From assembly GCA_028281025.1 (NCBI GenBank), contig JANQKR010000031.1, forward strand, positions 124,001-188,000: a stretch of DNA of 64,000 bases, read 5' to 3'. Source of the DNA: Croceivirga sp. (GTDB lineage: Bacteria > Bacteroidota > Bacteroidia > Flavobacteriales > Flavobacteriaceae). The notes beneath the pieces were generated by a model. That model did not search any database, was not told the DNA's origin, and saw only the letters and a list, made by a program, of their open reading frames with translations. A program made the position numbers and the translations under genes. Below are positions 12,456 to 56,910 of this stretch, piece after piece. How positions within the stretch are numbered: position 1 is the stretch's first letter; each line of letters starts with the position of its first letter.

Positions 12456-12482
12456 ACACCTTTTTTGCCCACAACCCCAATG

Positions 12483-13087: not shown

Positions 13088-13112
13088 CTCAGTTCATAGT
13101 TCCTCAATATGC

Positions 13113-13140: not shown

Positions 13141-13176
13141 GGTTTTGTATAAAGCTGTGATAACACAGGTATTTCT

Positions 13177-13184
13177 TAAATTTG
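13177..13184 (+). promoter_or_regulatory. Candidate ffh -7 box
   Basis: TAAATTTG matches the TAnnTTTG consensus 26 bases before the ffh ATG. No -33 TTG lies at the expected spacing. Confidence 0.4.
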
Positions 13185-13210
13185 TCCTCCTTCAAAAATG
13201 ATGTAAGCCG

Positions 13211-14539: not shown

Positions 14540-14550
14540 TATGTTTTGTT

Positions 14551-15016: not shown

Positions 15017-15018
15017 TG

Positions 15019-15894: not shown

Positions 15895-15895
15895 A

Positions 15896-16057
15896 TCAGT
15901 CCTTTTGTTGCTCGGCTTCCTTTTCGGTCCGCACTAATAATTGCTCTTCCTCCTCTGTTGGGGTCAATACGTCCAAATCTTCCCCTTCATCATTGGTACA
16001 GCCCGTAACGGCCATAGTAGCGAATACTACCGTTAGCAAAAGTAAAATGGTCTTCAT
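15896..16057 (-). CDS. Small lipoprotein, 53 aa
   Basis: The minus-strand frame from ATG at 16057 encodes a 53-residue protein starting MKTILLLLTVVFATMAVTGC. The VTGC lipobox at C20 is followed by TNDEGEDLD and a charged tail rich in Glu and Gln. The mature peptide of about 34 residues is thus a short acidic lipopeptide. It begins one base after the folD stop codon, convergently. A clean lipobox and signal in so short a frame are unlikely by chance. The function is unknown. Confidence 0.65.
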   Translation of the reverse strand: MKTILLLLTVVFATMAVTGCTNDEGEDLDVLTPTEEEEQLLVRTEKEAEQQKD

Positions 16058-16200
16058 GGCACATAAAATTTGGGATTGCCTATAAAGCTAACGTTTAGAC
16101 CATAGCATTCTTGTTTTCAATGGCTTGAATTCGATAAAATACCCGTTTTAGGAAATACTGCATATTTTAATTGATTAACTTCAATGGCAAATAATCAATT

Positions 16201-17928
16201 ATGAAATACCCACTTATTGTACTTGCCCTGGTATGGCTTTGCGTTACTTCGTGTGAAAATCCGACCGGAAGAAGGGCCATTGCAGTCTCTTTTTCCGAAA
16301 ACGCAAATGGGCAAAGTCTGGATGGGCGTTTATTGTTACTACTTTCCACCAATGATGAAAAGGAGCCAAGATTCCAAATCAATGCCGGTTTACATACACA
16401 GTTGGTCTTTGGAATGGATGTGGAAGGCATGCAGCCAGGCCAACAACTGGTTTTTGATGAAACCACTTTTGGATTTCCCTATCCCAGTTTGGCCGATGCC
16501 CCGTCAGGGGAGTATTACGTACAGGCCCTGTTACACACCTATGAGACCTTTAATTTGAGTACGGGACATACCGTAAAATTACCCATGGACAATGGTGAGG
16601 GCCAACAATGGAACCGTTCGCCAGGAAATCTCTATAGTACACCCTTTAAAATTACCATTGGAGATAATGGAGTTAAGGATGTGGACGTGGTTATGGACCA
16701 GGTTATTCCACCGATTGAGGAACCACAGGATACGGAGTGGGTAAAACACATTAAGATTAAATCTGAAAAGCTTTCCGAGTTCTGGGGAAGGGATATGTAT
16801 TTAGGGGCGCATGTATTGTTGCCAAAAGGGTTCGAGGAACATCCTAAAGCTAAATATCCATTGATGATCTTTCATGGACATTTTCCGGATGACTTTGGAG
16901 GGTTTCGGACCACACCACCGGATTCCGATTTAAAACCCGACTATTCGGCCCGATTTGGAGTTGAGGGCTATAACATCATACAGCAACAAGAGGCGTATGA
17001 TTTCTATAAACGCTGGAACGAACCTGATTTCCCACGTTTTTTAATTGTTGAAATTCAGCATCCAACACCCTATTATGATGATTCCTATGCCGTGAATTCC
17101 GCTAGCCAGGGGCCCTATGGTGATGCCATAACCCATGAGTTGGTTCCCTATATTGAAGAACAGTTTAGGGGCATTGGTGAAGGTTGGTCCCGGTTTTTAT
17201 ATGGAGGTTCCACCGGGGGCTGGGAAGCCCTGGCGGTGCAGGTGAAATATCCAGACGAATACAATGGTTGTTTTGCCGCCTGTCCGGATCCCATCGATTT
17301 TAGGGCGTATTGCTTGACCAATATTTATGAAGATAAGAATGCCTATTACTATGAAAGTGAACATAAGGAACGGGAGGTTCCCGCGCACAGGGACTATTTG
17401 GGGCATGTACAGACCACCACTCGGGAATACAACCATTTGGAATTGGTATTGGGTACAAAGTCCCGTTCTGGGCAACAGTGGGATATTTGGGAGGCGACCT
17501 ATTCCCCTCAAGGGGATGATGGTTATCCAGAACGTTTATGGGATAAAATGACGGGTGATATTAATCCGGAAGTGGCCAATTATTGGAGGGAAAACTATGA
17601 CTTGCGCCATATTCTGGAACGGGATTGGGATAAATTGGGGGAACGACTTCAGGGTAAGATCCATATTTATTGTGGGGATATGGACAATTACTATCTCAAT
17701 AATGCAGTGTATCTCATGGAAGATTTCTTGGAAAGTACCACAGATCCTTATTATGGGGGCGAAGTGGATTACGGAGATCGGGCGGAACACTGTTGGAATG
17801 GCGACCAAGAAAATCCCAATCATATCAGTCGCTTGCGATATAATAGTATGTATGTACCCAAAATAATGGAACGGATTGCTGAATCCGCACCCAAAAATGC
17901 GGATTTGACCAGTTGGAGATACCAATAA
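16201..17928 (+). CDS. Lipoprotein esterase-like alpha/beta hydrolase
   Basis: This 575-residue protein has a lipoprotein signal with C18 in VTSC. The N-terminal half (about 25-180) is beta-rich. The C-terminal half resembles the putative-esterase (Esterase D/feruloyl esterase-like) fold, with KYPLMIFHGHFP near 220 and the nucleophile elbow YGGSTGGWEA near 333-342. A final RAEHCWNGD could supply the catalytic His. It is surface- or periplasm-exposed. The substrate is unknown. The downstream DUF2306 gene starts 4 bases after the stop, so they form an operon. Confidence 0.75.
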   Translation: MKYPLIVLALVWLCVTSCENPTGRRAIAVSFSENANGQSLDGRLLLLLSTNDEKEPRFQINAGLHTQLVFGMDVEGMQPGQQLVFDETTFGFPYPSLADAPSGEYYVQALLHTYETFNLSTGHTVKLPMDNGEGQQWNRSPGNLYSTPFKITIGDNGVKDVDVVMDQVIPPIEEPQDTEWVKHIKIKSEKLSEFWGRDMYLGAHVLLPKGFEEHPKAKYPLMIFHGHFPDDFGGFRTTPPDSDLKPDYSARFGVEGYNIIQQQEAYDFYKRWNEPDFPRFLIVEIQHPTPYYDDSYAVNSASQGPYGDAITHELVPYIEEQFRGIGEGWSRFLYGGSTGGWEALAVQVKYPDEYNGCFAACPDPIDFRAYCLTNIYEDKNAYYYESEHKEREVPAHRDYLGHVQTTTREYNHLELVLGTKSRSGQQWDIWEATYSPQGDDGYPERLWDKMTGDINPEVANYWRENYDLRHILERDWDKLGERLQGKIHIYCGDMDNYYLNNAVYLMEDFLESTTDPYYGGEVDYGDRAEHCWNGDQENPNHISRLRYNSMYVPKIMERIAESAPKNADLTSWRYQ

Positions 17929-17932
17929 CGTC

Positions 17933-18553
17933 ATGGGAAGAACGAACAAATTAGCGTGGTTTGTGTTTGCCTTTTTGGCCATTGGTGTGGGCCTTTATCC
18001 AATGGCTTATTTTTTTGTCGCCGGTAAGTTTGGTCTGCTATATTCCAAATCTGATGCCCTTTTGGCAGATACGCTATGGAACATCGGTTTTTATGGCCAC
18101 ATTACTTTTGGCGGTTTGGCCTTATTGACGGGTTGGTCCCAGTTTAGTAAGAAGTTGCGGAACAAACGTTTGCAACTGCACCGCAATCTGGGAAAAATTT
18201 ATGTAGGTTCCGTGGTGGTAAGTGGAATCTGCGGTGTGGGCATAGGATTTTTTGCTACGGGAGGATGGGTAAGCGCATCCGGTTTTGTTCTTTTGGGTCT
18301 GATTTGGTTATACACTACACTATCGGCCTATGCCGCCATTCGCAGAAAGGATATGGCATTACATCAAGGAATGATGATTTACAGTTATGCCGCTTGCTTC
18401 GCTGCAGTGACGTTGCGAATATGGCTGCCATTATTGCAATTTACCTTTGGGGAGTTTTTGATTGCCTATAAAATTGTGGCCTGGCTCTGTTGGGTGCCGA
18501 ATATGGTATTTGCTTTTTTTTGGGTAAAAAAAAGAGGTCTGGTATTGGGGTGA
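17933..18553 (+). CDS. DUF2306 integral membrane protein
   Basis: A 206-residue protein with about six hydrophobic segments. The first helix is LAWFVFAFLAIGVGLYPMAYF. The segment QLHRNLGKIYVGSVV after helix 2-3 and the histidine-bearing helices (GFYGHITFGG, ALHQGMMIYSYAACF) are typical of DUF2306 membrane proteins, whose activity is unknown. It follows the esterase gene by 4 bases and is probably co-transcribed. Confidence 0.8.
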   Translation: MGRTNKLAWFVFAFLAIGVGLYPMAYFFVAGKFGLLYSKSDALLADTLWNIGFYGHITFGGLALLTGWSQFSKKLRNKRLQLHRNLGKIYVGSVVVSGICGVGIGFFATGGWVSASGFVLLGLIWLYTTLSAYAAIRRKDMALHQGMMIYSYAACFAAVTLRIWLPLLQFTFGEFLIAYKIVAWLCWVPNMVFAFFWVKKRGLVLG

Positions 18554-18607
18554 TGCTCTGTAGTGGAAGTATCTTTAAGCCGGAAAACAATTTGACAATA
18601 CATACAT

Positions 18608-19579
18608 ATGAAGTTTAGAAGGTTTGGTAGAACGGACTGGCAGGTAAGTGAAATAGGTTATGGTATGTGGGGCATGGGGGGTTGGAAGGAATCCGATGAC
18701 CGACAATCCGCAAAATCGTTGGACTTGGCCGTAGAAAATGGCGTAAATTTTTTTGATACGGCGTGGGGTTACGGAGAAGGACATAGCGAAAAACTTCTGG
18801 GGGCATTGGTACGAAGGCATCCAAATACAAAATTGTACACGGCAAGTAAGATACCTCCCAAAAATTTTAAGTGGCCGGCCAAACCGGAATATCGGTTTGA
18901 GGATTCCTACCCACGGGAACATATCGTGGAATACACAGAGAAGACCTTGCAAAATTTGGGATTGGAACAAATAGATCTGATGCAGTTGCATACTTGGGAC
19001 GATACCTGGGCCGAAAGGGAAGAATGGCAACGTGCCATTGAGGATTTAAAAACATCGGGCAAGGTAGTCGCTATGGGAATAAGTATGAATCGATGGGAGC
19101 CCGAAAATGGCATTACCGCCTTACGCACCAAAAAGCTGGATGCGGTACAGGTGATCTACAACATTTTTGACCAAGCCCCTGAGGACAAGCTTTTTCCCAT
19201 TTGTGAGGAATTGGATATTGCCGTAATTGCGCGTGTGCCTTTTGACGAGGGAACATTGACCGGAAACCTTACCAAGGAAACCACTTTTCCCGAAGGGGAT
19301 TGGAGGGGGACCTATTTTGTCCCTGAAAACCTGAGTGCAAGTGTGGAAAAAGCGGATGCGTTGCGACCTATTGTGCCTGAAGGAATGACCATGGCCGAAA
19401 TGGCCCTTCGCTTTATCCTCATGAATAAAACAGTAGGTACCGTTATTCCCGGCATGCGAAAAGAACGCAATGTATTGGCAAATACGGCTACTAGTGATGG
19501 TACGGGCCTTCCCTTGGAATTGTTCAATACATTACGAAATCACCGTTGGGACAGAAAGCCAACAGCTTGGTCCCAATAA
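18608..19579 (+). CDS. Aldo/keto reductase
   Basis: A 323-residue NADPH-dependent oxidoreductase of the AKR superfamily. The catalytic tetrad is visible as Asp and Tyr in FFDTAWGYGEGHSE (near residues 48-61), Lys in YTASKIPP (near 80) and His in LMQLHTWDD (near 120). The C-terminal IPGMRKERN segment is the cofactor-phosphate region. The substrate is unknown. It starts 54 bases after the DUF2306 gene and may be its own unit. Confidence 0.92.
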   Translation: MKFRRFGRTDWQVSEIGYGMWGMGGWKESDDRQSAKSLDLAVENGVNFFDTAWGYGEGHSEKLLGALVRRHPNTKLYTASKIPPKNFKWPAKPEYRFEDSYPREHIVEYTEKTLQNLGLEQIDLMQLHTWDDTWAEREEWQRAIEDLKTSGKVVAMGISMNRWEPENGITALRTKKLDAVQVIYNIFDQAPEDKLFPICEELDIAVIARVPFDEGTLTGNLTKETTFPEGDWRGTYFVPENLSASVEKADALRPIVPEGMTMAEMALRFILMNKTVGTVIPGMRKERNVLANTATSDGTGLPLELFNTLRNHRWDRKPTAWSQ

Positions 19580-22000: not shown

Positions 22001-22042
22001 CAACTAACAACTAACAACTAACAACTAACAACTAACAACTAA
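22001..22042. repeat. Perfect heptanucleotide tandem array (6 copies of CAACTAA)
   Basis: Six identical CAACTAA units (TTAGTTG on the minus strand) run without error from 22001 to 22042. The array starts one base from the lipoprotein ATG (21997-21999) and its far end supplies the TAG stop codon (22039-22041) of the HerA-like gene. It shares an AGTnG core with the arrays at 35166 and 36314. Confidence 0.95.
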
Positions 22043-23550
22043 CGAATTACTTTTTTTAAAACGCCCAATACGCCCCGGATAAAGGTAGCACTGGTAAGCA
22101 CTTTGACCACGGGATTCATGCGTGTACTTCGGCTTCGTGAAGAAGTCCGCCGGGCGGTGGTTTTTTTGGCTTCTTCCCTTTCTGCTTCTTTCTCTGCCTT
22201 TTCAATTTTCCCGTTGAGGATTTCATAGGCACTTTCCCTATCAATTTCCTCATTGTATTTTTTGACCAAAGGCGATTTCCCTATGACCTCTTTTAGCTCT
22301 TTTTCCGTTAAAACATCCATTCGGCTCATGGGTGCGCGAAGCATGGTCGCAGAAAGTGGGGTAGGCCTACCTTTTTCATCCAGAGCGGAGATTAGGGCCT
22401 CACCGATTCCCAATGAGGTCAAAATCCCTTCCGTATCGTAAAACTCGGAATCGGGATAGTTTTGGGCGGTCAGTTTTATGGCCTTTCGGTCCTTGGCAGT
22501 GAATGCCCTGAGCGCATGCTGCACCTTTAGCCCCAATTGTGCCAGTACATCATCTGGGATGTCGGTTGGGTTTTGTGTTACAAAATATAGCCCTATACCT
22601 TTGGAGCGTATCAATTTTACAATACTTTCAATTTGGTCCAAAAGGGCCTTTGACGCATTTTCAAAAATAAGGTGTGCTTCATCGATAAACAGTATCAATT
22701 CGGGTCGATCACTATCACCTTGCTCGGGAAATGTGCTATAAATTTCGGCCAGCAGACTCAACATAAAGGTCGAAAATAATTTTGGCTTGTCCTGAATATC
22801 CGTAAGGCGAATGATATTGATATACCCTCGACCGTTTTCATCGATCCTAGTGAGGTCATCCACTTCAAAGGACTTTTCCCCAAAGAACAGGTCGGCCCCT
22901 TGTTGCTCCAGTTCAATAACCTTTCTAAGGATGGTACCTGTTGAACTCGTGGAAATCCGACCGTAATCCTTTTGAAATTCCTTTTTTCCTTCCCCAGTGG
23001 CATATTGCAGCACTTTTTTAAAGTCGTTCAAATCCAACAAAGGCAATTTGTGGTCATCACAATATTTAAAAACCACGGCGACAATACCTTCTTGGGTAAC
23101 GGTCAAATCCAGAATCCGTGACAAGAGTACGGGACCAAATTCCGATACTGTGGCCCGTAATCGAACGCCGTCCTGTTCTGAAAGGGATAGAATTTCCACG
23201 GGGAAACCTTTGGGTTCAAAAGGAAGTCCAATGGCTTCATGACGTTCATCAATCTTTGGATGGCCCGGACTCGGTTGGGCAATACCACTCAAATCCCCCT
23301 TCAAATCCATTAGCAGTACGGGAACCCCTTTTTCGGAGAGGTTTTCGGCAATGACCTGCAAGGTTTTGGTCTTTCCGGTACCCGTTGCCCCGGCAATAAG
23401 ACCATGACGGTTTAAGGTTTTTAAAGGGATTTTGATGAAAGCTTCTTTTACCGTTTCCTCATTTACCATACCAGCGCCCATGGTGATGTAATCGCCTTTC
23501 ATGGCATACCCTTTTTCGATATGGGCAAAGAATTGTTCTTTTTGGTCCAT
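22039..23550 (-). CDS. HerA-like DUF853 ATPase
   Basis: A 503-residue P-loop ATPase of the DUF853 (HerA/VirB4-like helicase) family. Walker A is GATGTGKT at residues 54-61 and Walker B is ELILFIDEAHLIF near 285. LAQLGLKVQHALRAFTAKD matches the family's C-terminal segment, and the tail is Arg/Lys/Ser-rich (ARRTSSRSRS). ATG at 23550 (MDQKEQFF) is chosen because the open frame farther upstream runs antisense through the RidA gene. The role in DNA handling is not defined. The stop codon lies inside the heptamer array. Confidence 0.9.
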   Translation of the reverse strand: MDQKEQFFAHIEKGYAMKGDYITMGAGMVNEETVKEAFIKIPLKTLNRHGLIAGATGTGKTKTLQVIAENLSEKGVPVLLMDLKGDLSGIAQPSPGHPKIDERHEAIGLPFEPKGFPVEILSLSEQDGVRLRATVSEFGPVLLSRILDLTVTQEGIVAVVFKYCDDHKLPLLDLNDFKKVLQYATGEGKKEFQKDYGRISTSSTGTILRKVIELEQQGADLFFGEKSFEVDDLTRIDENGRGYINIIRLTDIQDKPKLFSTFMLSLLAEIYSTFPEQGDSDRPELILFIDEAHLIFENASKALLDQIESIVKLIRSKGIGLYFVTQNPTDIPDDVLAQLGLKVQHALRAFTAKDRKAIKLTAQNYPDSEFYDTEGILTSLGIGEALISALDEKGRPTPLSATMLRAPMSRMDVLTEKELKEVIGKSPLVKKYNEEIDRESAYEILNGKIEKAEKEAEREEAKKTTARRTSSRSRSTRMNPVVKVLTSATFIRGVLGVLKKVIR

Positions 23551-33923: not shown

Positions 33924-35165
33924 TTGAATTTAGCGTTTTTTATTGCCAAGCGACTCATCACCGGTAAGGAAACTAAAAATAGTATTTCCGCACCAATCCT
34001 AAAAATAGCCATAGCAGCTATTGCCATTGGATTGATCATGATGTTGATCGCCATTGCCACAAGCCTGGGGCTCAAGCTTAAGATTCGGGAAAAGATTGCG
34101 GCCTTCAATGGGCACATCCAAATCTATAACTATGACAACAATCGTTCCGATGTCTCGGTAACCCCCGTATCGTTGAATCAGGATTTCTATCCAGAGTTTA
34201 CCAATGTTGATGGCGTTGCACATGTGCAAGGAGTGGCCGTAAGGGCGGGAATTATCAGGACCGATGAAACCTTTGAAGGTATTTTGGCCAAAGGGGTCGG
34301 GGCGGATTTCAAATGGGACAATTTCGAAGAATTTTTGGTAGTTGGGGAACTGCCGGATTATTCCGGGGGATTGAATGAGGAAACCTTGATTTCCCAAACG
34401 TTGGCAAATAAGCTCAACCTAAATGTTGGGGATACCTATCTTTCCATCTTTTTAAAGGATGGTGACCTCTCGAAACCCCCTAATAATAGAAGGTTCAAGG
34501 TCAAGGGAATCTATCAAAGTGGATTTGAGGAATTGGATGCCAGTTATGTCTTGATTGACCTAAGGCATATCCAACGAATGAATAAATGGGAAGCGGACCA
34601 AGTGGGCCACTTTGAAGTTTTTTTACAGGATTTTAATCAATTACAGCAGAAAACTGCAGAAATCTATGGAAAAACGGTTTCCAGTTTGGATACCCAAAAC
34701 CTTGGAAACAAATATTTTAAGATTTTTGAGTGGTTGGAGTTGTTTGATTTGAATACGGCGCTCATCATCGGAATTATGATCGTTGTGGGAGGAATCAATA
34801 TGATTACCGCTCTTTTGGTCCTTATACTGGAGCGCACACAGATGATAGGGATACTAAAGGCGCTGGGGTCCCAAAATTGGACCATACGCAAAGTGTTTTT
34901 GATCAATGCCACTTACCTCATAGGCCTAGGTCTATTTTGGGGGAATATCATAGGACTTGGACTTATTTTTATGCAACAAAGGTTTCAGTTCTTAAAATTC
35001 CCCAATCCCGAGGAATACTATGTTACCAATATCCCGGTGGACCTATCACTTTTTAATATCCTATTGCTCAATATAGGTGTCATGGTACTCTGCCTTTTAA
35101 TGCTTTTGGTACCCTCTTATGCGATTTCCAAAATTTCCCCTGTGAAGGCCATTAAGTTCGAGTAG
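33924..35165 (+). CDS. ABC transporter permease, LolC/FtsX type
   Basis: This 413-residue protein has an N-terminal helix (IAIAAIAIGLIMMLIAIATS), a large periplasmic MacB-PCD-like domain (about 55-270) and three C-terminal helices of FtsX type, ending in SYAISKISPVKAIKFE. The layout matches LolC/LolE-like permeases for lipoprotein release or MacB-like export. A TTG start at 33924 is used because no other start precedes the first helix. The cognate ATPase gene is not adjacent. The stop codon is directly followed by a heptamer array. Confidence 0.9.
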   Translation: MNLAFFIAKRLITGKETKNSISAPILKIAIAAIAIGLIMMLIAIATSLGLKLKIREKIAAFNGHIQIYNYDNNRSDVSVTPVSLNQDFYPEFTNVDGVAHVQGVAVRAGIIRTDETFEGILAKGVGADFKWDNFEEFLVVGELPDYSGGLNEETLISQTLANKLNLNVGDTYLSIFLKDGDLSKPPNNRRFKVKGIYQSGFEELDASYVLIDLRHIQRMNKWEADQVGHFEVFLQDFNQLQQKTAEIYGKTVSSLDTQNLGNKYFKIFEWLELFDLNTALIIGIMIVVGGINMITALLVLILERTQMIGILKALGSQNWTIRKVFLINATYLIGLGLFWGNIIGLGLIFMQQRFQFLKFPNPEEYYVTNIPVDLSLFNILLLNIGVMVLCLLMLLVPSYAISKISPVKAIKFE

Positions 35166-35284
35166 GGTTGTTAGTAGTTAGTAGTTAGTAGTTAGTGGTT
35201 AGTGGTTAGTTGTTAGTGGTTAGTGGTTAGGTGTTGGGTGTTGGATTCTGGATGCTGGGTGTTGGAAATTGGATGTGAGATGCC
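35166..35284. repeat. Degenerate heptanucleotide array, about 17 units
   Basis: From the base after the permease stop codon, the sequence reads in unbroken 7-base register: AGTAGTT (3 copies), AGTGGTT (4, one interrupted by AGTTGTT), then drifting units such as GGGTGTT, GGATGCT, GGAAATT and GGATGTG. The left part has the same AGTnGTT core as the 22001 array. No indel breaks the register. Confidence 0.92.
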
Positions 35285-35342
35285 GCGTAGCAGGGATTCA
35301 TAGTATAATTTTTCATTTTTTCCTGATTGCTCAACAATATGC

Positions 35343-35633
35343 CTAATACTTTAAATTCAGGTATTTTTTCATTTGATGAACATAGTTCTCAAAAGCATTT
35401 CTTCCTTTTTCAGAAAGTCTACAATATGTTTTAGGGTAATTATTTTCAAAGGTCTTATCAATATCGATGTAACCTGACTCTTTTAGTTTTTTTAATTGAT
35501 GACTTAGATTTCCCTGGGTTGTGCGCGTCTGTTCGCGCAAAAAGGTAAAATCAGCTTTTTTGACCTTGATTAGAATGGACACCACGGCAAGACGTACTTG
35601 TTGGTTAAGTACTGGATCCAAATCGTCGTACAT
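35343..35633 (-). CDS. Winged-helix transcriptional regulator
   Basis: A 96-residue single-domain regulator of the ArsR/MarR-like winged-helix type (HTH_27-like). ADFTFLREQTRTTQGNLSHQLKKLKESGYIDI is the helix-turn-helix with its recognition helix, and TYCRLSEKGRNAFENYV follows the wing. It lies 2 bases after the membrane-protein gene, so it is the second gene of that operon. It probably represses the operon through the dyads upstream. Confidence 0.9.
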   Translation of the reverse strand: MYDDLDPVLNQQVRLAVVSILIKVKKADFTFLREQTRTTQGNLSHQLKKLKESGYIDIDKTFENNYPKTYCRLSEKGRNAFENYVHQMKKYLNLKY

Positions 35634-35635
35634 GG

Positions 35636-36208
35636 CTATTTGGCGTTTTTTAATAAATAAGCTGGAATTAAATAACCAATGATTACGGCGAAACCTGTTA
35701 GCAAAAGTGTAGTGGCCTCATTAACATACAGTGACGCTATTGTAAATAGGAAAAAGATGATTCCACCAATTTTAAGAGGTTTAAATTTCATGGTAAGTCC
35801 TGAAATCAATGTTCCAACTCCCGCTAAAAGAAGTACAAAACCCGTTGGATTTGTTTTTAATTGTATCGCGATGAATACAATAGGTATAAATGCAATACCG
35901 ATGACAACCCATAGGTATTTTAGAAAAACTTCAAAGTAGGTTTCATAATGTTTGTTTCGTTCCCTTCGCATGGCGTGGATAATACTTATTGCCCAACCCA
36001 AGGGAATCAACACCAACCAAGGAAGGTAATGGTACTTAAGGTCGGTAAGTGTAACGAGTAGATAGTTGCAGAATGCCGCAATTGAGATTATCCAACCCCA
36101 TAGTGTAAAGTAAAATCCCTGCTCTTTAATGTTCTCTTTAGTTTGCTCCATTGCCTTTGAAATAATGGCCAAACTTTCTGCTGGATGAAGTTTTTCAGTA
36201 TTTTCCAT
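35636..36208 (-). CDS. Hypothetical polytopic membrane protein
   Basis: This 190-residue protein has a charged N-terminus (MENTEKLHPAESLAIISKAMEQ) and five or six hydrophobic segments, for example WLVLIPLGWAISIIH and YLWVVIGIAFIPIVF. I recognise no catalytic motif. Bacteroidota often pair such a protein with a small winged-helix regulator, as here. ATG at 36208 is preferred over the frame start at 36223. Two inverted repeats lie just upstream. Confidence 0.8.
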   Translation of the reverse strand: MENTEKLHPAESLAIISKAMEQTKENIKEQGFYFTLWGWIISIAAFCNYLLVTLTDLKYHYLPWLVLIPLGWAISIIHAMRRERNKHYETYFEVFLKYLWVVIGIAFIPIVFIAIQLKTNPTGFVLLLAGVGTLISGLTMKFKPLKIGGIIFFLFTIASLYVNEATTLLLTGFAVIIGYLIPAYLLKNAK

Positions 36209-36223
36209 ATAAAAAGATTGCAA

Positions 36224-36262
36224 ATTACTTTGTAAAAGTAATGTAGTTTGTATTACAAACTA
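36224..36262. promoter_or_regulatory. Two operator-like inverted repeats
   Basis: ATTACTT/AAGTAAT (36224-36242, 5-base spacer) and TAGTTTGTA/TACAAACTA (36244-36262, 1-base centre) are perfect dyads side by side, 16 and 36 bases upstream of the membrane-protein start. On the minus strand TACTTTTA lies within the first dyad as a possible -7 box. This fits autorepression by the operon's own winged-helix protein. The rest of 36209-36313 shows nothing else clear. Confidence 0.6.
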
Positions 36263-36313
36263 AATATTTTTATTGAATTCTGAAGGTCCAAAGATTTTAA
36301 AGATGCCCATTTT

Positions 36314-36523
36314 AAATTCGTACTTCCCACTTCCCACTTCCCACTTCCCACTTCCCACTTCGCATTTCGCAATTCCCACTTCCCACTTCCCACTTCGCAT
36401 TTCGCAATTCCCACTTCCCACTTCGCATTTCGCAATTCGCAATTCGTACTTCGTACTTCGTACTTCGTACCTCAAATTTCGTACCTCCCACTTCCTACTT
36501 TTAAATTCGTACTTCTGACTTCT
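36314..36523. repeat. Heptanucleotide array, about 30 units
   Basis: Thirty units in perfect 7-base register follow the pattern YAYTTCS: CACTTCC is commonest, with CACTTCG, CATTTCG, CAATTCC, CAATTCG and TACTTCG variants. Higher-order blocks occur, such as CACTTCG-CATTTCG-CAATTCC repeated. The complement AGTGGGA resembles AGTGGTT of the 35166 array, in inverted orientation around the two genes between. The array ends 6 bases before the cysteine synthase -7 box. Confidence 0.95.
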
Positions 36524-36529
36524 TAAGCC

Positions 36530-36545: not shown

Positions 36546-37523
36546 ATGGAATATGCTGAGAATATATTGGAAACCATTGGTAATACGCCATTGGTAAAGC
36601 TTAATAAAATAACGGCTGAACTTCCCTGTTTGGTTTTGGCCAAGTATGAGACTTTTAACCCAGGGAATTCGGTCAAAGACCGTATGGCATTGCAAATGGT
36701 GGAAGATGCCGAGGCCGATGGACGCCTTAAACCGGGTGGAACCATTATAGAAGGAACTTCGGGCAATACGGGAATGGGTTTGGCCCTGGCGGCCATCGTA
36801 AAAGGTTATCGTATGATCTGTGTCATCAGCGATAAGCAATCCAAGGAAAAAATGGACATACTTAGGGCTGTGGGAAGTGAAGTCCATGTCTGTCCAACGG
36901 ACGTTGCCCCGGACGACCCAAGAAGTTACTATTCCACGGCCAGAAGATTGGCAGAGGAGATTCCCAACGCATGGTATGTCAATCAGTATGACAATCCCTC
37001 AAACACCAAAGCACATTATCAAAGTACGGGCCCGGAAATTTGGCAACAGACCCAAGGAAAGGTGACGCATTTTGTGGTAGGTGTTGGAACGGGGGGAACC
37101 ATTTCCGGAGTGGGCAAATATCTAAAGGAACAAAACCCTGAAGTAAAGGTTTGGGGAGTGGATACCTATGGTTCGGTTTTTAAAAAATACCATGAAACCG
37201 GTATTTTTGATGAGAATGAAATCTATCCGTATATAACCGAGGGAATAGGGGAAGATATCCTACCTAAAAATGTAGCCTTTGATATTATTGATGGTTTTAC
37301 CAAGGTAACGGACAAAGACGCTGCGGTATTCACACAACGCCTTTCCAAGGAGGAGGGTATGTTTTTGGGGAATTCTGCCGGAGCGGCCATAAAAGGCGTG
37401 CTACAGCTTAAGGAACATTTTACCAAAGATGATGTGGTGGTCGTTTTGTTCCATGATCATGGAAGTCGTTATGTAGGGAAAATATATAATGACGATTGGA
37501 TGCGCGCCCAGGGGTTCTTATAG
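36546..37523 (+). CDS. PLP-dependent cysteine synthase / cystathionine beta-synthase-like enzyme
   Basis: A fold-type II PLP enzyme of 325 residues with ETIGNTPLVKLN, the Schiff-base lysine K44 in NSVKDRMALQM, the TSGNTGMGLAL substrate loop, and the phosphate-binding GTGGTISG near 180. The C-terminal NDDWMRAQGFL and the EIPNAWYVNQYDNPSN segment are closer to the catalytic core of cystathionine beta-synthase than to CysK, but CBS regulatory domains are absent. It makes cysteine from O-acetylserine or cystathionine from homocysteine and serine; sequence alone does not settle which. It is preceded by a heptamer array and a -7 box. Confidence 0.9.
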   Translation: MEYAENILETIGNTPLVKLNKITAELPCLVLAKYETFNPGNSVKDRMALQMVEDAEADGRLKPGGTIIEGTSGNTGMGLALAAIVKGYRMICVISDKQSKEKMDILRAVGSEVHVCPTDVAPDDPRSYYSTARRLAEEIPNAWYVNQYDNPSNTKAHYQSTGPEIWQQTQGKVTHFVVGVGTGGTISGVGKYLKEQNPEVKVWGVDTYGSVFKKYHETGIFDENEIYPYITEGIGEDILPKNVAFDIIDGFTKVTDKDAAVFTQRLSKEEGMFLGNSAGAAIKGVLQLKEHFTKDDVVVVLFHDHGSRYVGKIYNDDWMRAQGFL

Positions 37524-38386: not shown

Positions 38387-39163
38387 ATGACACAATTACG
38401 GCTTGGGAATCAAATTGTACAAATAACGGACGGCGAACTGACCGGTTATAAGGTAGGGGGGCATGAATTCATCCATCAGAAGGGAAGTCCGGGATGGGGA
38501 AGCGCGGACACGGAAATGTTTCCTATCATTGGCCCAGTAAATGAGGCAGGGTTTCAAGTGCAGGTTTCCAAAGGCACTGCCATCCAGGATCAGCATGGCC
38601 ATTTGAGGCAATTTCCCTATGACTTGCTCGCGGTTTCGGAGACCGCGGCAATCTTTAAAAAGGAATATAGGGCGGGAACTCCCATAAAAAACTCAAAGTA
38701 TCCCGGGAAATCTACCCAGGAATGGTTGGTTTGGCCTTATTCGTTTGGGTTTGAAAAGCGATTTCAACTTCATGGGGATGCTTTGGAAATTACCTTCACT
38801 ATTTCGGGAGAACGGGACATGCCCTTTATGTTAGGCTATCATCCGGCGTTTAAGTTACATGCCAAGGACCCAACAATTGTAACCAAGGAAAAGACCATTA
38901 CCTTGGATGAGGTTTTGGCCGTTGGAAGTAGGGCACTACTGGTAGCGGACCATGATGAACTTACCTTGGAGGATAAGAAAAGAGTCACCATAAAAACCGA
39001 AGGATTTGGTCATTTTATGTGTTGGACGGAAGTCAGGAATATGGTTTGTATTGAGCCCATCACTTTTTATCCCTATGCTGTGGAACAACGAGATTTACAT
39101 GAAGGTTTTCAATATCTTAAGGGAGATCAGGTCCTAAAGGTGTGGATCAAACCCAATGGTTAA
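38387..39163 (+). CDS. Aldose 1-epimerase family protein
   Basis: A 258-residue galactose-mutarotase-fold protein. MFPIIGPVNEAGF and GHLRQFPYDLL carry the conserved residues near the active site, and MLGYHPAFKL contains the catalytic-type His. It resembles LacX/YeaD-like epimerases rather than GalM, so it may act on sugar phosphates or other aldoses. Its stop overlaps the stop of the convergent ScfR gene by 3-4 bases. Confidence 0.88.
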   Translation: MTQLRLGNQIVQITDGELTGYKVGGHEFIHQKGSPGWGSADTEMFPIIGPVNEAGFQVQVSKGTAIQDQHGHLRQFPYDLLAVSETAAIFKKEYRAGTPIKNSKYPGKSTQEWLVWPYSFGFEKRFQLHGDALEITFTISGERDMPFMLGYHPAFKLHAKDPTIVTKEKTITLDEVLAVGSRALLVADHDELTLEDKKRVTIKTEGFGHFMCWTEVRNMVCIEPITFYPYAVEQRDLHEGFQYLKGDQVLKVWIKPNG

Positions 39164-40635
39164 CTGAATTTTTGTTGTAGCTCCTCCACAACAACCGCTG
39201 TTCTCCTGTTGCGTTCCATATGATTTAAAATAGTGGGTGGTGCCTCCCGGACCTCACAATCTTTTATGGCGCAACGTTCACAGGTGACCCCAACCTCGAA
39301 CGACTTTATGGAAGTATCCTCCAGGAAATGTACCTTTTTGCGTAGCTCATTGTTAATTTGCAATCCTATGCTCACGCTTCGGTATTCGTTCTTTTTAAAG
39401 GGATCTTTTGTGGCCGAAGCAAAGATTAGATACGAAAGTCCATCGTCAGGATAATGGGAAATCTGTACATCCATATGGTGTTCCCCATCATTTTTGGCAA
39501 TTTCCTTTAAAACCCGGATGGAGACCCACCTTCTACAGTATTTCTCGTCGGTCTCATTTCCATGTGGGGAATGCTTATGGGTCAGGTGCAATTCCTTGTT
39601 AATGTCAAAACGATCGCTCCCCTTCTTATGGCCAAAGCGGAGAAAAAACAAGTTTTCCAAGTGATAATCATTGGGTAAAATATTGGTCAACCTTTGATAG
39701 AGGGATTCTGGGGAGGCATTGTAATGGTTCTTTATCCCTGTTAAAAACGTCTTATCGAATTTTGGTTTTCCCAAAAAGGTGTCGATATGTTTTCTAAAAA
39801 GTGTTCGTGGAATAATCAATGCCCCGGCGAAATAGGAGGCATAAAAATTATTCAGTACCTGATCAAAACTTTCAAAGGAAATCCACGTAAATGTGTACAG
39901 GCGTTCCGTTATCTTCAGGAAATTATATCCCAACTCTTTGGCATAAATAAAGGTGCGTTGTGCTTCGTCCACATGGTCGGCGACCAAAAGGGTTTTGGTC
40001 TTTGGAACAAAAACGGAACGGAGATTGTCCAATTCTTGATGCTCCCTTAGGTTCTCATTGTTTATGGTGTACCCATATTCTTCAATCAAGATCTCTTCCA
40101 GTTCTTTTGAGGCCACGGATGCCCTTAAATCTATCTGGTAGGCTTTTGCAAAATCCATGGCCGCCTTTTCCAATTCCGGGAAAAAGTTGTTGTTGGCCTC
40201 CTGGTACGATCTTAAGGAAGCCAAATAGAAACTCTCTTTCCCAAAATTATATTGTTTGGCAATCTCAATGATCGTACTGATAAAAGCATTGACCTTGGTC
40301 GGGGCATTGGCCACAATATCGATCAAATCACCCTCTTTCACCCCAAAGAGTTCCAACGGCAGTTCCTTTAGAATATTGGACCGCAGCAATGCGCCAACGG
40401 GAGCCAGGTTTTTATCCAGTTTTAAAGAGACAAGACTGTCATAGGGAACTTCCAGCTTTTCGGCCAACAGGGCAATCTTATCGGTCTTGGGGTATTTTTT
40501 GCCTTTTTCTATTTCGTTCAGATAGGATTTGGAAAGCCCGGAAAGCTTGGAAAGCCCAAATAGGGATAGCTTTCTTTTGAGTCTTAGCTGCTTGAGTTTG
40601 AGCCCAAATATTAATTTAATGTATTGTTCTTCCAT
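39160..40635 (-). CDS. XRE/ScfR-family regulator of the glyoxylate shunt
   Basis: This 491-residue regulator has an XRE helix-turn-helix (about 8-62, LKQLRLKRKLSLFGLSKLSGLSKSYLNEIE) and a central IrrE/ImmA-like region. Its C-terminal ScfR (short-chain fatty acyl regulator) domain bears C452, C455 and C460 in CERCAIKDCEVREAPP. RamB of Corynebacterium and related proteins control acetate and propionate genes in response to acyl-CoA levels. It is divergent from aceB-aceA, and repeated TTGCGAATT elements and an AGCGAAC palindrome fill the intergenic region. Autoregulation is likely. Confidence 0.92.
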   Translation of the reverse strand: MEEQYIKLIFGLKLKQLRLKRKLSLFGLSKLSGLSKSYLNEIEKGKKYPKTDKIALLAEKLEVPYDSLVSLKLDKNLAPVGALLRSNILKELPLELFGVKEGDLIDIVANAPTKVNAFISTIIEIAKQYNFGKESFYLASLRSYQEANNNFFPELEKAAMDFAKAYQIDLRASVASKELEEILIEEYGYTINNENLREHQELDNLRSVFVPKTKTLLVADHVDEAQRTFIYAKELGYNFLKITERLYTFTWISFESFDQVLNNFYASYFAGALIIPRTLFRKHIDTFLGKPKFDKTFLTGIKNHYNASPESLYQRLTNILPNDYHLENLFFLRFGHKKGSDRFDINKELHLTHKHSPHGNETDEKYCRRWVSIRVLKEIAKNDGEHHMDVQISHYPDDGLSYLIFASATKDPFKKNEYRSVSIGLQINNELRKKVHFLEDTSIKSFEVGVTCERCAIKDCEVREAPPTILNHMERNRRTAVVVEELQQKFS

Positions 40636-50673: not shown

Positions 50674-53600
50674 ATGAAAAAACTTCGATTTGAATGGAGG
50701 CGTCACGCTCCATCTTTCAAATTAAGCTTGAAGATGAAACTAACTACGTTCTTACTTGTGGCCATGGTGTTTTGTATGCATGCCAATGATAGTTATTCGC
50801 AGCGAACCAGAATCAGTTTGGATTTAAGGAATAGCACGGTCGCAGAGGTTTTGGATGAAATTGAAAAAACCACAAAATTCAAGTTCATTTACAATGTAAA
50901 ACACGTTGATTTAGCCCGTGAAGTATCGGTTAAAGTAGAAGAACTTCGAATTCAGAATGTTTTGATTTCATTGTTCAACAATACCGAGACCGCTTTTAAA
51001 ATAAGGGGCAAACAAGTGATACTCAACAAAAAGGCCCCCAGGATTCCAGTCAATGGGGAATCTTCGGTAGCGGACTCATTACAATTACAGAACAAAATTA
51101 GGGTAACGGGTCTGGTGACCGATAATTTCGAGGTCCCATTGCCGGGAGTATCCATTGTGGAAAAGGGAACGGTCAATGGTGTGGCATCCGATTTTGACGG
51201 CAATTTTACCCTGGAGGTTGAACGGGGTGCCATTCTGGTTTTTACCTCCATTGGTTTCACGCCCTTGGAGCTACCGGCAACAGAACAGTTCATGAATGTG
51301 ACCATGAAGGAAACCACGAATGAATTGGAAGAGGTGATCATAGTGGCGCAAGGGATTACCCGATCTAGAAAGGCCTTGGGCTATTCCGTTTCCAAAGTGG
51401 ATACCAAAGAAACCGAAGGACGTCCTGAAGCAAATATTGCCAATACCTTACAAGGTAAAATATCCGGGGTACGGATTACGGCCGATAATGGGAGCAGTGG
51501 TGCGGATACCGATATCATCGTAAGGGGTAGTCTATCATTGAGCCAGGGGAACGAGGCATTGATCGTATTGAACAATGTTCCTTTTGACGGTACTATTTTG
51601 GATATCGATCCCAATGACATCAAGAATATCACCGTGCTAAAAGGCCTCAATGCCGCCGTTTTGTACGGTAGCCTAGGTAGGAATGGTGTGTTGTTGATAG
51701 AGACCAAAAGTGGAAATGCCGGTTTGGGCGAAAAGAGCTTTAAGGTCAATGTTTCCCAAACAACCTATACCAACAACGTTGCAAACATACCGGATTTTCA
51801 AAACGAGTATGGTGTAGGAAACAATTTCATTACAGATGCCGCTACCATAGCAAACAATGGTAGCTATGGTGCACGTTTCAGTGATGTGGATGTTGTTCCC
51901 CACCCTTATGCATTTGACCCTCGGTTTCCTGAATTTTCGGGCGTAGAGGTGCCTTTTGTTGCCGTACCGGACAATGTCAATGATTTTTTTAGGACGGGAA
52001 TAGGGCAGAATCTATCCGTAAATGTAAGTGCCACGGGAGAGAATGCTTCCTTTAACTCGTCCGTGAACTATACAGGTGAAGGAGGAATCATTGGAAACAA
52101 CAACTTTCAACGGTTCAATATTAATGTTGGTGGTACGGCACGATTGAATGATAAGATTTTGCTGTCCACGGCTTTGGGATATAATACAAGGGTAAGAACA
52201 TCACAGTCCGGCACGGATGTATTTGAGTTTTTGTACCGAATACCGAGGAATTTGGATATCCATAATTTGCCTTTCGAAGATCCTTTGACAGGTGAAAACG
52301 TTTTCTACAGACAGGCCGAAAACCCATTATGGACCTTAAATAATACGGGTAGGGAGCGCACGGTTAGCCGGGTCACGGCAAGTGTCAACCTAAGTTATCA
52401 ATTGGGCGATCATCACACCTTGAAGTACCGGGGTGGACTTCAGACCGAGACGGAAAGCATCTTTGATTATAGGAACCGGGGCGGACTCGCACCAGCTGAA
52501 AGGAATAACATTGATGAAGCTACCCGAAATACGGGGACTTTGGAATTGGGGGCCGGAACCGAGTTTGTGGTGGACAACACCTTGATTTTAAGCTCCGAAT
52601 ATGACCTCACGGAAAAGCTGGGGCTTAACTCACAACTAGGGGTGAATTCAAGGTTTGAACGGGATCAGAGCCAAGAATCCATATTTACCAATCAGATTGT
52701 ATTTGACTTTTTTAGGCCCGATAATTTCAGGAACAATAGTGATGCCGATTATCAGTTTGGTCGGGACAACCTGGTTGGCCTATTCGCCCAACTCGATTTT
52801 GATTACAATGATTATCTGTATTTAGGGCTATCCGGTAGGTATGATATTGCGTCCACCTTGGAAAAGGACAATCAAACCTTGTTCTACCCGGGTGTTTCGT
52901 TGTCCTTTATACCAAGTTCGGCTTTTGATTTTGGGGGAAACGTTGTCAACTACTTAAAACTTAGGGGAGCCTATGCTACATCGGCCGGCTTTCCCGGAAG
53001 GTTTAGGACAAGGAATTTCCTTATTTCGGACCCAAGGGCCTTTGAAGATCCCCAGGACGGTCTTATCGTTACCAATTCGTTTCCCTCCAGATTGGCGAAC
53101 CCGGATTTGGAGCCGGAATTGCACCGGGAAATAGAACTTGGTTTGGAAGGTAAATTCTTCAACAATGTGGTGACCCTTAGTACATCGGTATTTAAAAGGA
53201 TTTCCGAGAATCAAATCTTTGATGCTGAATTGGCCCCCGAAACCGGATTTCGCGAGACAACCATTAATGCAGGTAGGGTAGATACCGAGGGACTGGAAAT
53301 AGACTTGTCCATAGACCTCTTTAGAAACTCGGATTTTAACTGGAGCATTAGAAATGCCTTTACGGCCTTTGAGACCACGGTGGTGGAATTGCCCAATAAT
53401 GCGGAGCGCATACTTCTGAATACGGCCGGAGATCGGGCTGCCATAGTAGGGGAATCCCTGGGAGTACGTTTGGGTTCTTATGTGGTAAGGGATAGCCAGG
53501 GCAATCCCCTAATAAACCCGAGCAATGGGGTACTTTTGGTAAGTGATGAGGTGGGGCTCCAGGATGAAATCATTGGTGATGTCATCCCGGACTGGACGGC

Positions 53601-54117
53601 AACCACAATCCATACCTTCAGTTATAAAAATTTCACGTTATCCGGACAGTTCGAATATACCAAGGGAGGAACTGCCATATCCCCGGTGGTCGAGGAACTT
53701 TTTGAAAGGGGTACAGGACTATCCACCGTAAATAGGGAAGGAACTTTTGTTATACCCGGGGTATACGGTGACCCCGCAACAGGGGAGCCCATATTGGATA
53801 TCAACGGAAATACCATACCAAACACCATCCAACAGAACAGTAACCGGGTTGCTTTCAGCAATTTTTACGAATCGGAAGAAGGTTTCACGTTTGATGCTTC
53901 GGTATTTCGAATTCGTGAGGTAGCGTTGTCCTATACTTTGGATAGATCGGTTTTCAAGAAACTACCTGTGGAGAGCATCTTGTTCACCCTGACCGGTAGA
54001 AATGTTTTCTTCTATGCACCCAATTTTCCAAAGTCGGCAAACATTGATCCAGCCGAGGCTGGAAATAACTTTCCCACTACCAGACGCTATGCTTTTGGAA
54101 TAGCGGTTAATTTTTAA
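50674..54117 (+). CDS. SusC-family TonB-dependent outer-membrane transporter with STN domain
   Basis: A 1147-residue SusC/RagA transporter. Signal and STN domain (about 1-120) precede a carboxypeptidase-regulatory-like domain (RVTGLVTDNFEVPLPGVSIVEKGT), a plug with the SusC signature near 285-345 (DIIVRGSLSLSQGNEALIVL and ITVLKGLNAAVLYGSLGRNG), and a barrel ending FGIAVNF. The plug signature deviates from the usual VIDGVP (here VLNNVP) and SRAANGV (here SLGRNGV). The STN domain allows signalling to the FecR protein. The partner SusD follows 11 bases later. Substrate unknown. Confidence 0.96.
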   Translation: MKKLRFEWRRHAPSFKLSLKMKLTTFLLVAMVFCMHANDSYSQRTRISLDLRNSTVAEVLDEIEKTTKFKFIYNVKHVDLAREVSVKVEELRIQNVLISLFNNTETAFKIRGKQVILNKKAPRIPVNGESSVADSLQLQNKIRVTGLVTDNFEVPLPGVSIVEKGTVNGVASDFDGNFTLEVERGAILVFTSIGFTPLELPATEQFMNVTMKETTNELEEVIIVAQGITRSRKALGYSVSKVDTKETEGRPEANIANTLQGKISGVRITADNGSSGADTDIIVRGSLSLSQGNEALIVLNNVPFDGTILDIDPNDIKNITVLKGLNAAVLYGSLGRNGVLLIETKSGNAGLGEKSFKVNVSQTTYTNNVANIPDFQNEYGVGNNFITDAATIANNGSYGARFSDVDVVPHPYAFDPRFPEFSGVEVPFVAVPDNVNDFFRTGIGQNLSVNVSATGENASFNSSVNYTGEGGIIGNNNFQRFNINVGGTARLNDKILLSTALGYNTRVRTSQSGTDVFEFLYRIPRNLDIHNLPFEDPLTGENVFYRQAENPLWTLNNTGRERTVSRVTASVNLSYQLGDHHTLKYRGGLQTETESIFDYRNRGGLAPAERNNIDEATRNTGTLELGAGTEFVVDNTLILSSEYDLTEKLGLNSQLGVNSRFERDQSQESIFTNQIVFDFFRPDNFRNNSDADYQFGRDNLVGLFAQLDFDYNDYLYLGLSGRYDIASTLEKDNQTLFYPGVSLSFIPSSAFDFGGNVVNYLKLRGAYATSAGFPGRFRTRNFLISDPRAFEDPQDGLIVTNSFPSRLANPDLEPELHREIELGLEGKFFNNVVTLSTSVFKRISENQIFDAELAPETGFRETTINAGRVDTEGLEIDLSIDLFRNSDFNWSIRNAFTAFETTVVELPNNAERILLNTAGDRAAIVGESLGVRLGSYVVRDSQGNPLINPSNGVLLVSDEVGLQDEIIGDVIPDWTATTIHTFSYKNFTLSGQFEYTKGGTAISPVVEELFERGTGLSTVNREGTFVIPGVYGDPATGEPILDINGNTIPNTIQQNSNRVAFSNFYESEEGFTFDASVFRIREVALSYTLDRSVFKKLPVESILFTLTGRNVFFYAPNFPKSANIDPAEAGNNFPTTRRYAFGIAVNF

Positions 54118-54128
54118 ATGACACAACG

Positions 54129-55727
54129 ATGAAAAAAATACAAATCATAGGTTTGCTACTGTCAGTAGTATTTGTTTCATGCGAAATCACGGACTTTGGC
54201 GAAGAATTTCAAATTGACCCGGATAATCTCTCCCCTTCCTCAGCAGATCCCAATTTTTTGTTGAACAAGGTTCAGCTTGAATTTGCGGATATCCTACAGG
54301 ATATTGAACGTACAACGGATGAGGTGATGCGCTACAAAGTGCTGAATGATACCTACTCCGAGGTTTCTGACCAGGGTGTTTTAAATACCGAGTGGATCAA
54401 TTATTACGAATTTCTTGAAGATGCCAGCACATTGGACGATTTGGTCGCCAACGACGACAATTTGCTTTTTCACAGGGGCATTTCAAACATCATCATTGCT
54501 TACGGAACGGTTACCATGGTAGATCATTTGGGTGATATCCCCTTTTCCGAGGCCAATTCGGCGGCCGAAGGTATTATTAACCCCGTTGTGGATGACGATG
54601 AAGTGATTTATAACTCCGTATTGGAACTGCTGGACCGTGCCAAGGAGGACTTAAGTGCGGGTACCCCGGCTCCCGTAAACGATCTCTACTATAGGGGGGA
54701 TAGGGAAAAATGGATTCGACTGGCCAATTCCCTACAATTGAAAATGTTGGTAAATATGGGGAACCAGGCCGCTATAAATGCCCTGATTGCCCAAAATAAT
54801 TTCATTGAAACGGAATCTGATGATTTTCAATTTAGCTATAGCACCCAAACGGATCCGCTGAGTCAACATCCCAATTTTGTTGATGGCTATATTGTTGGTG
54901 GACAGGCCACCTATATGGGAAATTCATTTATGAATTTGCTGTTAAATGGTAAATCCGAACCCGATCCAAGAATCCGCTACTATATTTTTAGACAGTCCAG
55001 TCTTGACCCTATAGCCTCGGCCATCCCTTGCGTTAATGACCCAATGTTCGATTTTTGCTATTTGGGGAACTCTTACCTGGGAAGGGACCATGGGGATTTA
55101 AGGCCAAATTCCTCGGACCAGCAGTTTAGGGCAATCTATGGCCTGTATCCCGTTGGAGGGGCCTTTGATGAGGACAATCCTGTCACGGATCCCGATAACA
55201 TTGTTTTTGGTGTGGATGCCCCCAACCAATTGGGCGCGGGAATACTGCCCATATTGCTATCGTCCTTTGTGGATTTTTTACGGGCAGAAGCTGCCATCTC
55301 TTTGGGCACTTCGGATGATCCCAGGGCATTTTTGGAGTCTGGGATCAGAAAATCCATGGACAAGGTGTTGAACTTTGCCGATGGGGTTGCTACATCTTCT
55401 GATTTTGCGGCGACGTCGGACGATGTCGATGCCTACGTGGGAGAAGTTTTGGCAGCCTATGACGCTGCGGATGACCAAGGGAAACTGGACATTGTCCTGG
55501 AGGAATATTACATTGCTTCCTATGGGAATTCCACCGAAGCCTACAATGGGTACAGGAGAACCGGTTTTCCTTCAAGCCTTCAGGTCCCCATAGAAGTTAC
55601 GGGAGCCCCTTTTCCAAGGACGTTTGCCTATCCAACGGACGCAATCAATAACAACACCAATTTAAGTGCAAGACCAATCACCGTACAGGTGTTTTGGGAT
55701 ACCAATCCAGCAGGCTTCATAGAATAA
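54129..55727 (+). CDS. SusD-family (SusD/RagB-like) surface lipoprotein
   Basis: This 532-residue lipoprotein (lipobox FVSC) belongs to the SusD/RagB-like group, nearer to the SusD-like_2 type: DPNFLLNKVQLEFADILQ, NIIIAYGTVTMVDHLGDIPFSEA, YRGDREKWIRLANSLQLKMLVNM and YNGYRRTGFPSSLQVP are the characteristic segments. It caps the SusC pore and binds the substrate at the cell surface. The type found here is often linked to peptides or other non-starch substrates as well as glycans. Confidence 0.95.
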   Translation: MKKIQIIGLLLSVVFVSCEITDFGEEFQIDPDNLSPSSADPNFLLNKVQLEFADILQDIERTTDEVMRYKVLNDTYSEVSDQGVLNTEWINYYEFLEDASTLDDLVANDDNLLFHRGISNIIIAYGTVTMVDHLGDIPFSEANSAAEGIINPVVDDDEVIYNSVLELLDRAKEDLSAGTPAPVNDLYYRGDREKWIRLANSLQLKMLVNMGNQAAINALIAQNNFIETESDDFQFSYSTQTDPLSQHPNFVDGYIVGGQATYMGNSFMNLLLNGKSEPDPRIRYYIFRQSSLDPIASAIPCVNDPMFDFCYLGNSYLGRDHGDLRPNSSDQQFRAIYGLYPVGGAFDEDNPVTDPDNIVFGVDAPNQLGAGILPILLSSFVDFLRAEAAISLGTSDDPRAFLESGIRKSMDKVLNFADGVATSSDFAATSDDVDAYVGEVLAAYDAADDQGKLDIVLEEYYIASYGNSTEAYNGYRRTGFPSSLQVPIEVTGAPFPRTFAYPTDAINNNTNLSARPITVQVFWDTNPAGFIE

Positions 55728-55736
55728 AAAACCATT

Positions 55737-56888: not shown

Positions 56889-56910
56889 CCCGCCAAAACA
56901 AGAATAGAAA

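Follow-up and report, generated by a model that had tools for sequence, protein, structure and literature searches.

Two arrays of heptanucleotide repeats face each other across a pair of minus-strand genes in the genome of Croceivirga sp. (NCBI GenBank assembly GCA_028281025.1), which raises the question of whether arrays and genes together make up a mobile cassette, with the arrays as its ends, or whether the genes were inserted between simple repeats. The window analyzed is a stretch of 64,000 nucleotides (contig JANQKR010000031.1, positions 124,001 to 188,000 of the forward strand), and coordinates given without a locus name refer to it. We designate the genome of the window G000 and ten other genomes of the genus G001 to G010; L numbers denote fetched loci. 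An initial annotation had read the arrays as an unnamed repeat system and a possible cassette boundary. Our comparisons point to another history: the genes, an operon, were most likely inserted between pre-existing arms, and the arms are probably heptanucleotide simple repeats, not dedicated integration sites.

Layout of the locus and its arrays

The left flank of the locus is an FtsX-like permease gene (33924-35165, plus strand), the stop codon TAG of which abuts the left heptamer array (35170-35275, plus strand). The G-rich strand of this array leads away from the permease stop codon. TTAGTNG heptamers span 35170-35230 on the plus strand, and a degenerate period-7 pattern with TGGATNN units continues to about 35265-35275. 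It is followed by a non-repeat region (35276-35342), 3' of the gene pair and absent from the corresponding spacers of G002 and G004, which probably came in with the gene pair. The right array (36310-36524, minus strand) is built of GAAGTNN, GAATTGC and GAAATGC units, read as NACTTCN on the plus strand, where such heptamers span 36317-36522, with higher-order blocks of 28 and 35 bp; its terminal 17-mer is copied in phase at 36310 and 36499, 189 bp or 27 x 7 apart. A cysteine synthase-like (PALP) gene, cysM, forms the right flank (36546-37523, plus strand). No transposase or integrase gene was found between the two flanking genes, and no target-site duplication could be made out in the arrays, which are degenerate at their edges.

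The initial annotation's view that the arrays enclose two minus-strand genes is confirmed, both genes being plausible. The first encodes a winged-helix regulator of 96 amino acids (35343-35633; HTH_34, PF13601, E 4e-28) and the second a membrane protein of 191 amino acids (35636-36208), for which Pfam and NCBIfam gave neither a match nor a family name. The upstream region (36224-36262, minus strand) contains two palindromes, ATTACTTT-GTA-AAAGTAAT and TAGTTTGTA-T-TACAAACTA, which are partly conserved in an alignment with Nonlabens and may serve as operators. The gene pair is likely a self-contained, self-controlling operon, self-control being suggested by the palindromes and the gene order. A regulator encoded a few genes off the locus (39160-40635) combines an XRE domain with IrrE-like and ScfRs (short-chain acyl-CoA regulator) domains.

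A third array in the window, six copies of TTAGTTG (22001-22043, minus strand), runs from the stop TAG of a HerA-like ATPase gene to the ATG of a lipoprotein-like gene, and the arrays proved real at all three places. The 5.1-Mb genome has exact TTAGTNG arrays at just two places, 22001 and 35170, both inside the window, and GAANTNN arrays at four. As to the AGTnG family claimed for the three arrays, the left and right units have five of seven bases in common, and the left and 22001 units six of seven. As a sign of one system, the left-right kinship was rejected, since random heptamer pairs reach five of seven in 17% of cases when rotations and both strands are allowed (P 0.17), so that this single pair is not beyond chance. 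Three other units of the right array have three to four bases in common with the left unit. The trinucleotide GGG is absent from both strands of 22001-22043 and 35170-35234, where no quadruplex-type unit with runs of at least three G was found, and occurs in the degenerate part of the left array (35235-35275) and on the minus strand of the right array.

The unit length of seven is preferred over other lengths both in the window and in a sample of the relative G002. Using a single detector for periods 4 to 14, the window gave three arrays of period 7, a harmonic of 14 at the same places and nothing at other periods; 380 kb of G002 (19 of 20 sampled stretches) gave two segments of period 7, one of period 9, one of period 14 and none of the others. 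The shuffled-sequence control of this detector gave 0.0, and locus L102, which contains 75-bp coding repeats, was excluded from the spectrum. TRF detected one period-7 array in the full 400-kb G002 sample, and short repeats with periods of 9-18 elsewhere in the window.

The same site in other genomes of the genus

All 11 genus genomes have a permease orthologue, and in seven of the ten other than G000 (G004, G002, G005, G006, G008, G003 and G001) it lies next to cysM with the gene pair missing between the two. The remaining three, G010, G007 and G009, have the permease without a neighbouring cysM and are uninformative on the site. The accessory character proposed for the gene pair is thus borne out by an empty site in seven of ten genomes. 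The two closest genomes, G002 and G004 (permease 98% identical), have permease-cysM spacers of 529 and 207 bp, in which both kinds of array stand face to face with no genes between them. Their arm next to the permease stop consists of TTAGGAG, TTAAAAG or TTGAGAG units, the arm toward the cysM start of TTCGCAC, TTCCCAC or TTCGCAG units, and both spacers end before cysM in the same ~50 bases as that of this genome. In the more distant G005, G006, G008, G003 and G001 the spacers measure 64-120 bp and contain no visible repeats. The locus exists without the genes in seven genomes, with the arrays present in two of them and absent in five. The arms arose first or independently, and the gene pair lies between them only in this genome.

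Comparison of the window with G002 (positions 1-64000) and G004 (4678-64000) showed the gene pair to be the sole gene-sized presence/absence difference outside 52-60 kb. Within that interval, the alignable parts of a SusC/SusD/TIG-domain region (52122-60361) are 64-71% identical to the two sisters and the flanks 90-96%, which suggests an exchanged or fast-diverging uptake locus.

One alternative is that the gene pair is ancestral between the arms and was lost in G002 and G004. The arms are indeed common to all three species. However, the pair is missing from five outgroups in which the neighbouring genes are the same, and a homologue of the membrane protein occurs in just two of the ten other genus genomes (G005 and G008), at 25% identity and in other places. 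Moreover, this alternative needs two losses or a grouping of G002 with G004 that the two flanking genes do not support; pairwise identities among G000, G002 and G004 differ between these genes, which single out no sister as outgroup. From this and the five outgroups without the genes we infer insertion rather than loss, and consider loss quite unlikely.

Another possibility is a functional RNA hairpin made of the two arms, which would act as a terminator or processing element between permease and cysM, two genes read in the same direction. When folded, the G004 spacer gives a single long stem (z -3.7; G002, z -2.5), and none of 200 arm-wise shuffles was as good for G004 or for another two-arm locus, L121. 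Against this, shuffles were as good in 30 of 200 cases for G002, 13 of 200 for this genome, 28 of 200 for L130 and 49 of 200 for L134, the arm unit sequences differ among the sisters, and the five outgroups have no arms. With only two of six arm pairs beating their arm-wise shuffles, a hairpin or terminator is not general, and a functional hairpin at this locus appears improbable.

Homologues of the gene pair

Membrane-protein homologues were found in seven of 40 relatives of all ranks and, at a threshold of E 1e-20, in six of 299 genomes of the family sample, this genome being counted in both cases. In the named genome collection the single match was Nonlabens antarcticus (L088), with the same two-gene order, a membrane protein 61% identical and a winged-helix protein 81% identical. 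The DNA match to Nonlabens runs from 36284 to 35351 of the window and covers the palindromes. The membrane-protein gene adjoins the winged-helix gene in 12 of 12 fetched homologous loci, none of which has a heptamer array at the gene pair within the flanks covered (~1.5 kb each, 5 kb for Nonlabens); TRF likewise detected no heptamer array in the Nonlabens locus. No donor of the gene pair was found, the nearest homologue being that at 61% identity. A plasmid donor was considered and rejected, as the one plasmid record is 28% identical.

Since G002 and G004 have the arrays but not the genes, and 12 of 12 loci elsewhere the genes but not the arrays, the most likely event is an insertion of the pair between arrays that were already there. 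In the scenario that fits these observations, the permease-cysM spacer would have gained two-armed heptanucleotide tandem repeats in the ancestor of the three close species, with one G-rich arm pointing away from the permease stop codon and the facing arm away from the cysM start. The two-gene operon with its upstream palindromes would then have been inserted mid-array, in reverse orientation, in the lineage of this genome. The arrays may lengthen and shorten in place in 7-base steps, by slippage or unequal exchange, and would be tolerated past stop codons and ahead of starts without being dedicated integration sites.

The contrary reading, a mobile cassette with the gene pair as its cargo and the inverted arrays as its ends, has in its favor that in this genome the accessory genes are just what the arrays enclose. 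Both arms without cargo in two sisters and cargo without arms in every other fetched locus speak against it, and so do other loci with paired arrays. A second array pair flanks a core gene of the NA37 family, shared by all 11 genus genomes; the array pair occurs in G000, G002 and G004 and in none of the other eight genomes. In G000 (L145, contig C23) the arrays lie around the NA37 gene at 4595-4682 and 5784-5852, with GTTAAAG and TTAGGTG on the G-rich strand. Since arrays flank a core gene here, flanking arrays are no marker of cargo. The initial annotation had suggested testing whether arrays elsewhere flank other insertions; when G000, G002 and G004 were compared at ten further array-locus groups (22001 is one of them, and three compare G002 with G004 only), none showed a gene-sized difference between the arms. 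Given also the general rule of placement described below, a cassette boundary can be dismissed with considerable assurance, and the cassette is highly improbable.

Turnover of arrays in place

Among the 11 genus species, seven carry an array in the 22001 spacer, with three different units in three to nine copies. TTAGTTG is repeated six times in G000, eight times in G002 and three times in G004, so copy number varies at the same site among close species. G005 has eight copies of TTAGATG, one of them altered to TTGGATG, starting 33 bases past the stop; TTAGGTG is found nine times in G008, five times in G001 and seven times in G006, and there is no array in this spacer of G003, G007, G009 or G010. 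One 725-aa gene has a different unit at its stop in each of three species, always after an identical TAGTTTTGTTAG. A constant position with changing unit and number is what would be expected of local slippage or unequal exchange rather than of jumping elements, and local slippage fits as the cause of array turnover, to judge from the changes in copy number and unit.

In G001, G006 and G008 (L209, L210 and L211) an extra gene for a 114-aa cupin lies between the array of the 22001 site and the lipoprotein gene. The cupin belongs to PF07883 (E 6e-15 for the G001 protein), and only a few bases separate its ATG from the last heptamer.

These spacers could also be seen as recombination-prone landing sites, the arrays themselves being static and breaks or microhomology within them promoting gene gain and loss. 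The only gene-sized spacer insertion of the window falls in one of its two array-bearing spacers, the cupin gene sits at the 22001 spacer in three species, and ~2.9 kb of G000 including the first array of L144 corresponds to ~0.7 kb in the more distant G008. However, the ten further array-locus groups, none with a gene-sized segment differing between the arms in G000, G002 and G004, argue against such a role, and two insertions near loci of this kind in this genome are in array-free spacers, ~0.8-0.9 kb from the arrays. In the available part of Rehm et al. (PMC4692102), ~10% of heptamer regions had changed compared with roughly 30% of control spacers. As a general explanation, landing sites of this kind are unlikely; a hotspot role of array spacers is possible, and the observations in the window and in G008 are suggestive of one.

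Placement of heptamer arrays

GAANTNN arrays occur in at least nine of the 11 genus genomes and TTAGNNG arrays in at least seven of 11; in the family, TTAGNNG arrays with a sharp 5' end were found in 50 of 299 genomes and 48 of 236 genera. The surveyed genus loci have their arrays between open frames and near gene edges, with one overlap (L119). In the genus, the G-rich strand leads away from the nearest gene edge in 24 of 30 array segments, three of which are the window's own. The proportion is 21 of 27 without those three and 19 of 23 with one vote per spacer or cluster. In the family loci, distances to a gene are shorter from the 5' end of the G-rich strand than from its 3' end in 23 of 28 (medians 8.5 and 118.5 bp), two of the 30 loci having been left out for lack of a gene on one side. 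The G-rich 5' end lies within 15 bp of a stop in 14 of 30 loci and of a start in five of 30, compared with four and three of 28 for the 3' end. The gene's stop TAG doubles as the TAG of the first TTAG unit in six of 30, and the matched 22 bases lack GGG in 29 of 30. A G-rich strand in the sense orientation behind stops or antisense before starts was thus found in the window, the genus and the family sets, and the left and right arms look like an inverted pair because each obeys this rule.

The polarity counts of genus and family give P values of 0.0009-0.0014 against one half (0.0009 for 23 of 28 in the family). Ordinary spacer edges of G002 lean slightly the same way (124 of 212 unequal edges, 58.5%), and against this background P is 0.012-0.016 (0.012 for the family), the 58.5% being a base-composition count that differs in statistic from the distance comparison. 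Genus loci for the array survey and the orientation count were hand-chosen among the matches listed for the GAANTNN and TTAGNNG patterns. The orientation count comprises the window together with 18 loci. Each orthologous group of G000, G002 and G004 contributed one and the others are single loci, except that L152 was included together with its orthologue L132. It excludes L117, L118, L119, L136, L150, L153 and the other remaining orthologues, as well as L124 and L129, which have stretches of N that the detector scores as repeats. At the detector threshold, L118 and L133 showed no array. The family orientation set consists of 30 loci from 83 TTAGNNG matches, one per genome, one of them being another place in this genome. 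In both the survey and the orientation counts, genes are open reading frames defined by length and not by annotation. Because TTAG repeats put a stop codon into every frame of either strand, an open frame necessarily ends where an array begins; nearness to stops is thereby inflated equally at both array ends, an effect that cannot produce the polarity.

Reversed control patterns were informative about the unit itself. Among the matches listed, the reversed GAANTNN pattern gave 29, 10 and 49 matches in G000, G004 and G002 compared with 35, 14 and 54 for the true pattern, and none in the other eight genomes, six of which match the true pattern. The reversed TTAGNNG pattern gave three genus matches among those listed, all in G010; in the family, a count by eye put it at about 75 matches from about 24 genomes, the true pattern having 83 from 50. 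A sequence-specific heptamer family was rejected on these grounds, as the controls match heptamer arrays too. The unit sequence therefore appears loosely constrained, the period being special and the TTAG and GAAGT motifs only partly so.

The orientation rule is not predicted by simple slippage alone. One speculative explanation, which we regard as rather doubtful, is that a polar process starting from gene edges, chiefly stops, generates flavobacterial arrays with the G-rich strand outward. If this were true, the same placement in Xanthomonas, Nostoc and the genomes studied here, despite differing units that here mostly lack GGG, would point to one shared mechanism stepping in seven bases, tied to the termination of transcription or translation and not to quadruplexes or passive slippage. 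In L119 (G009, contig C16; 1009-1492), heptamers of the TTGTTGG and ACTTCTT types alternate twice, resembling a duplicated two-arm element.

Relation to known heptanucleotide repeats

The STRR sequences of cyanobacteria are tandem heptanucleotide repeats. The arrays described here are likewise tandem heptamers, although in another phylum and with other units. Heptanucleotides of Calothrix are cited in the available part of Rehm et al. (2015; PMC4692102), where G-rich heptamers of the types GGGAATC and GGGANTN in Xanthomonas and GGGGA(C/T)T in Nostoc are described as quadruplex-forming, mostly intergenic and variable in length between close species, with an example of an inverted pair. Preferred placement is sense behind a stop codon or antisense before an open reading frame, and gene neighbourhoods of heptamer regions are reported to be more stable than controls (PMC4692102). 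Our arrays resemble these in having 7-base units with conserved and free positions and the same placement. Unlike those repeats, as they are given in this part of the paper, the units here are TTAGNNG and GAAGTNN, and GGG is absent from the 22001 array and from the TTAG part of the left array, where three-layer quadruplexes therefore cannot explain the placement.

A second precedent is the TAACTGA heptamer, arrays of which MacGregor (2015; PMC4679880) describes in marine Beggiatoaceae, Cyanobacteria and five Bacteroidetes; according to the available part of that paper, they also occur in Gramella and Aequorivita alongside other heptamers, with spacers of close relatives lacking the arrays. In the main species these arrays have two to six copies, mostly just 5' of starts, and were proposed as binding sites of a post-transcriptional regulator (PMC4679880). 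The arrays studied here are also intergenic heptamers beside genes that may be missing from the same spacer in close relatives, with a different unit from the TAACTGA described in that part (PMC4679880). A 2007 survey cited there found heptanucleotides to be the most abundant class in most genomes, and PMC6749651 is a paper on prokaryote satellites. Among the literature matches listed, judged by title and the start of the abstract and with subscription journals outside the search, there were no other papers on such arrays in Flavobacteria.

Calling the arrays an unnamed repeat system was thus too strong, since heptamer arrays with such placement are described in the available portions of PMC4692102 and PMC4679880. 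The arrays belong with known intergenic heptanucleotide repeats; what is new is the empty-site history of this spacer and the placement with units mostly lacking GGG. This removes a false mobile-element reading and provides a natural experiment in which one spacer is found bare, with two repeat arms, or with two arms and a captured operon. In addition, the gene-edge placement known from the literature is extended to mostly GGG-free units, so that the question of why the unit has seven bases becomes easier to test.

Relative G002 also contains tandem repeats of longer period. The region of L102 from 3950 to 18956 (G002:C1:3692001-3712000) holds twelve stretches of 75-bp tandem repeats over ~15 kb. 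Positions ~4219-6759 of L117 (G002:C1:5085000-5097000) give thirteen overlapping alignments, in steps of ~154 bp, onto positions 240-500 of L144, which indicates a ~154-bp tandem repeat in G002.
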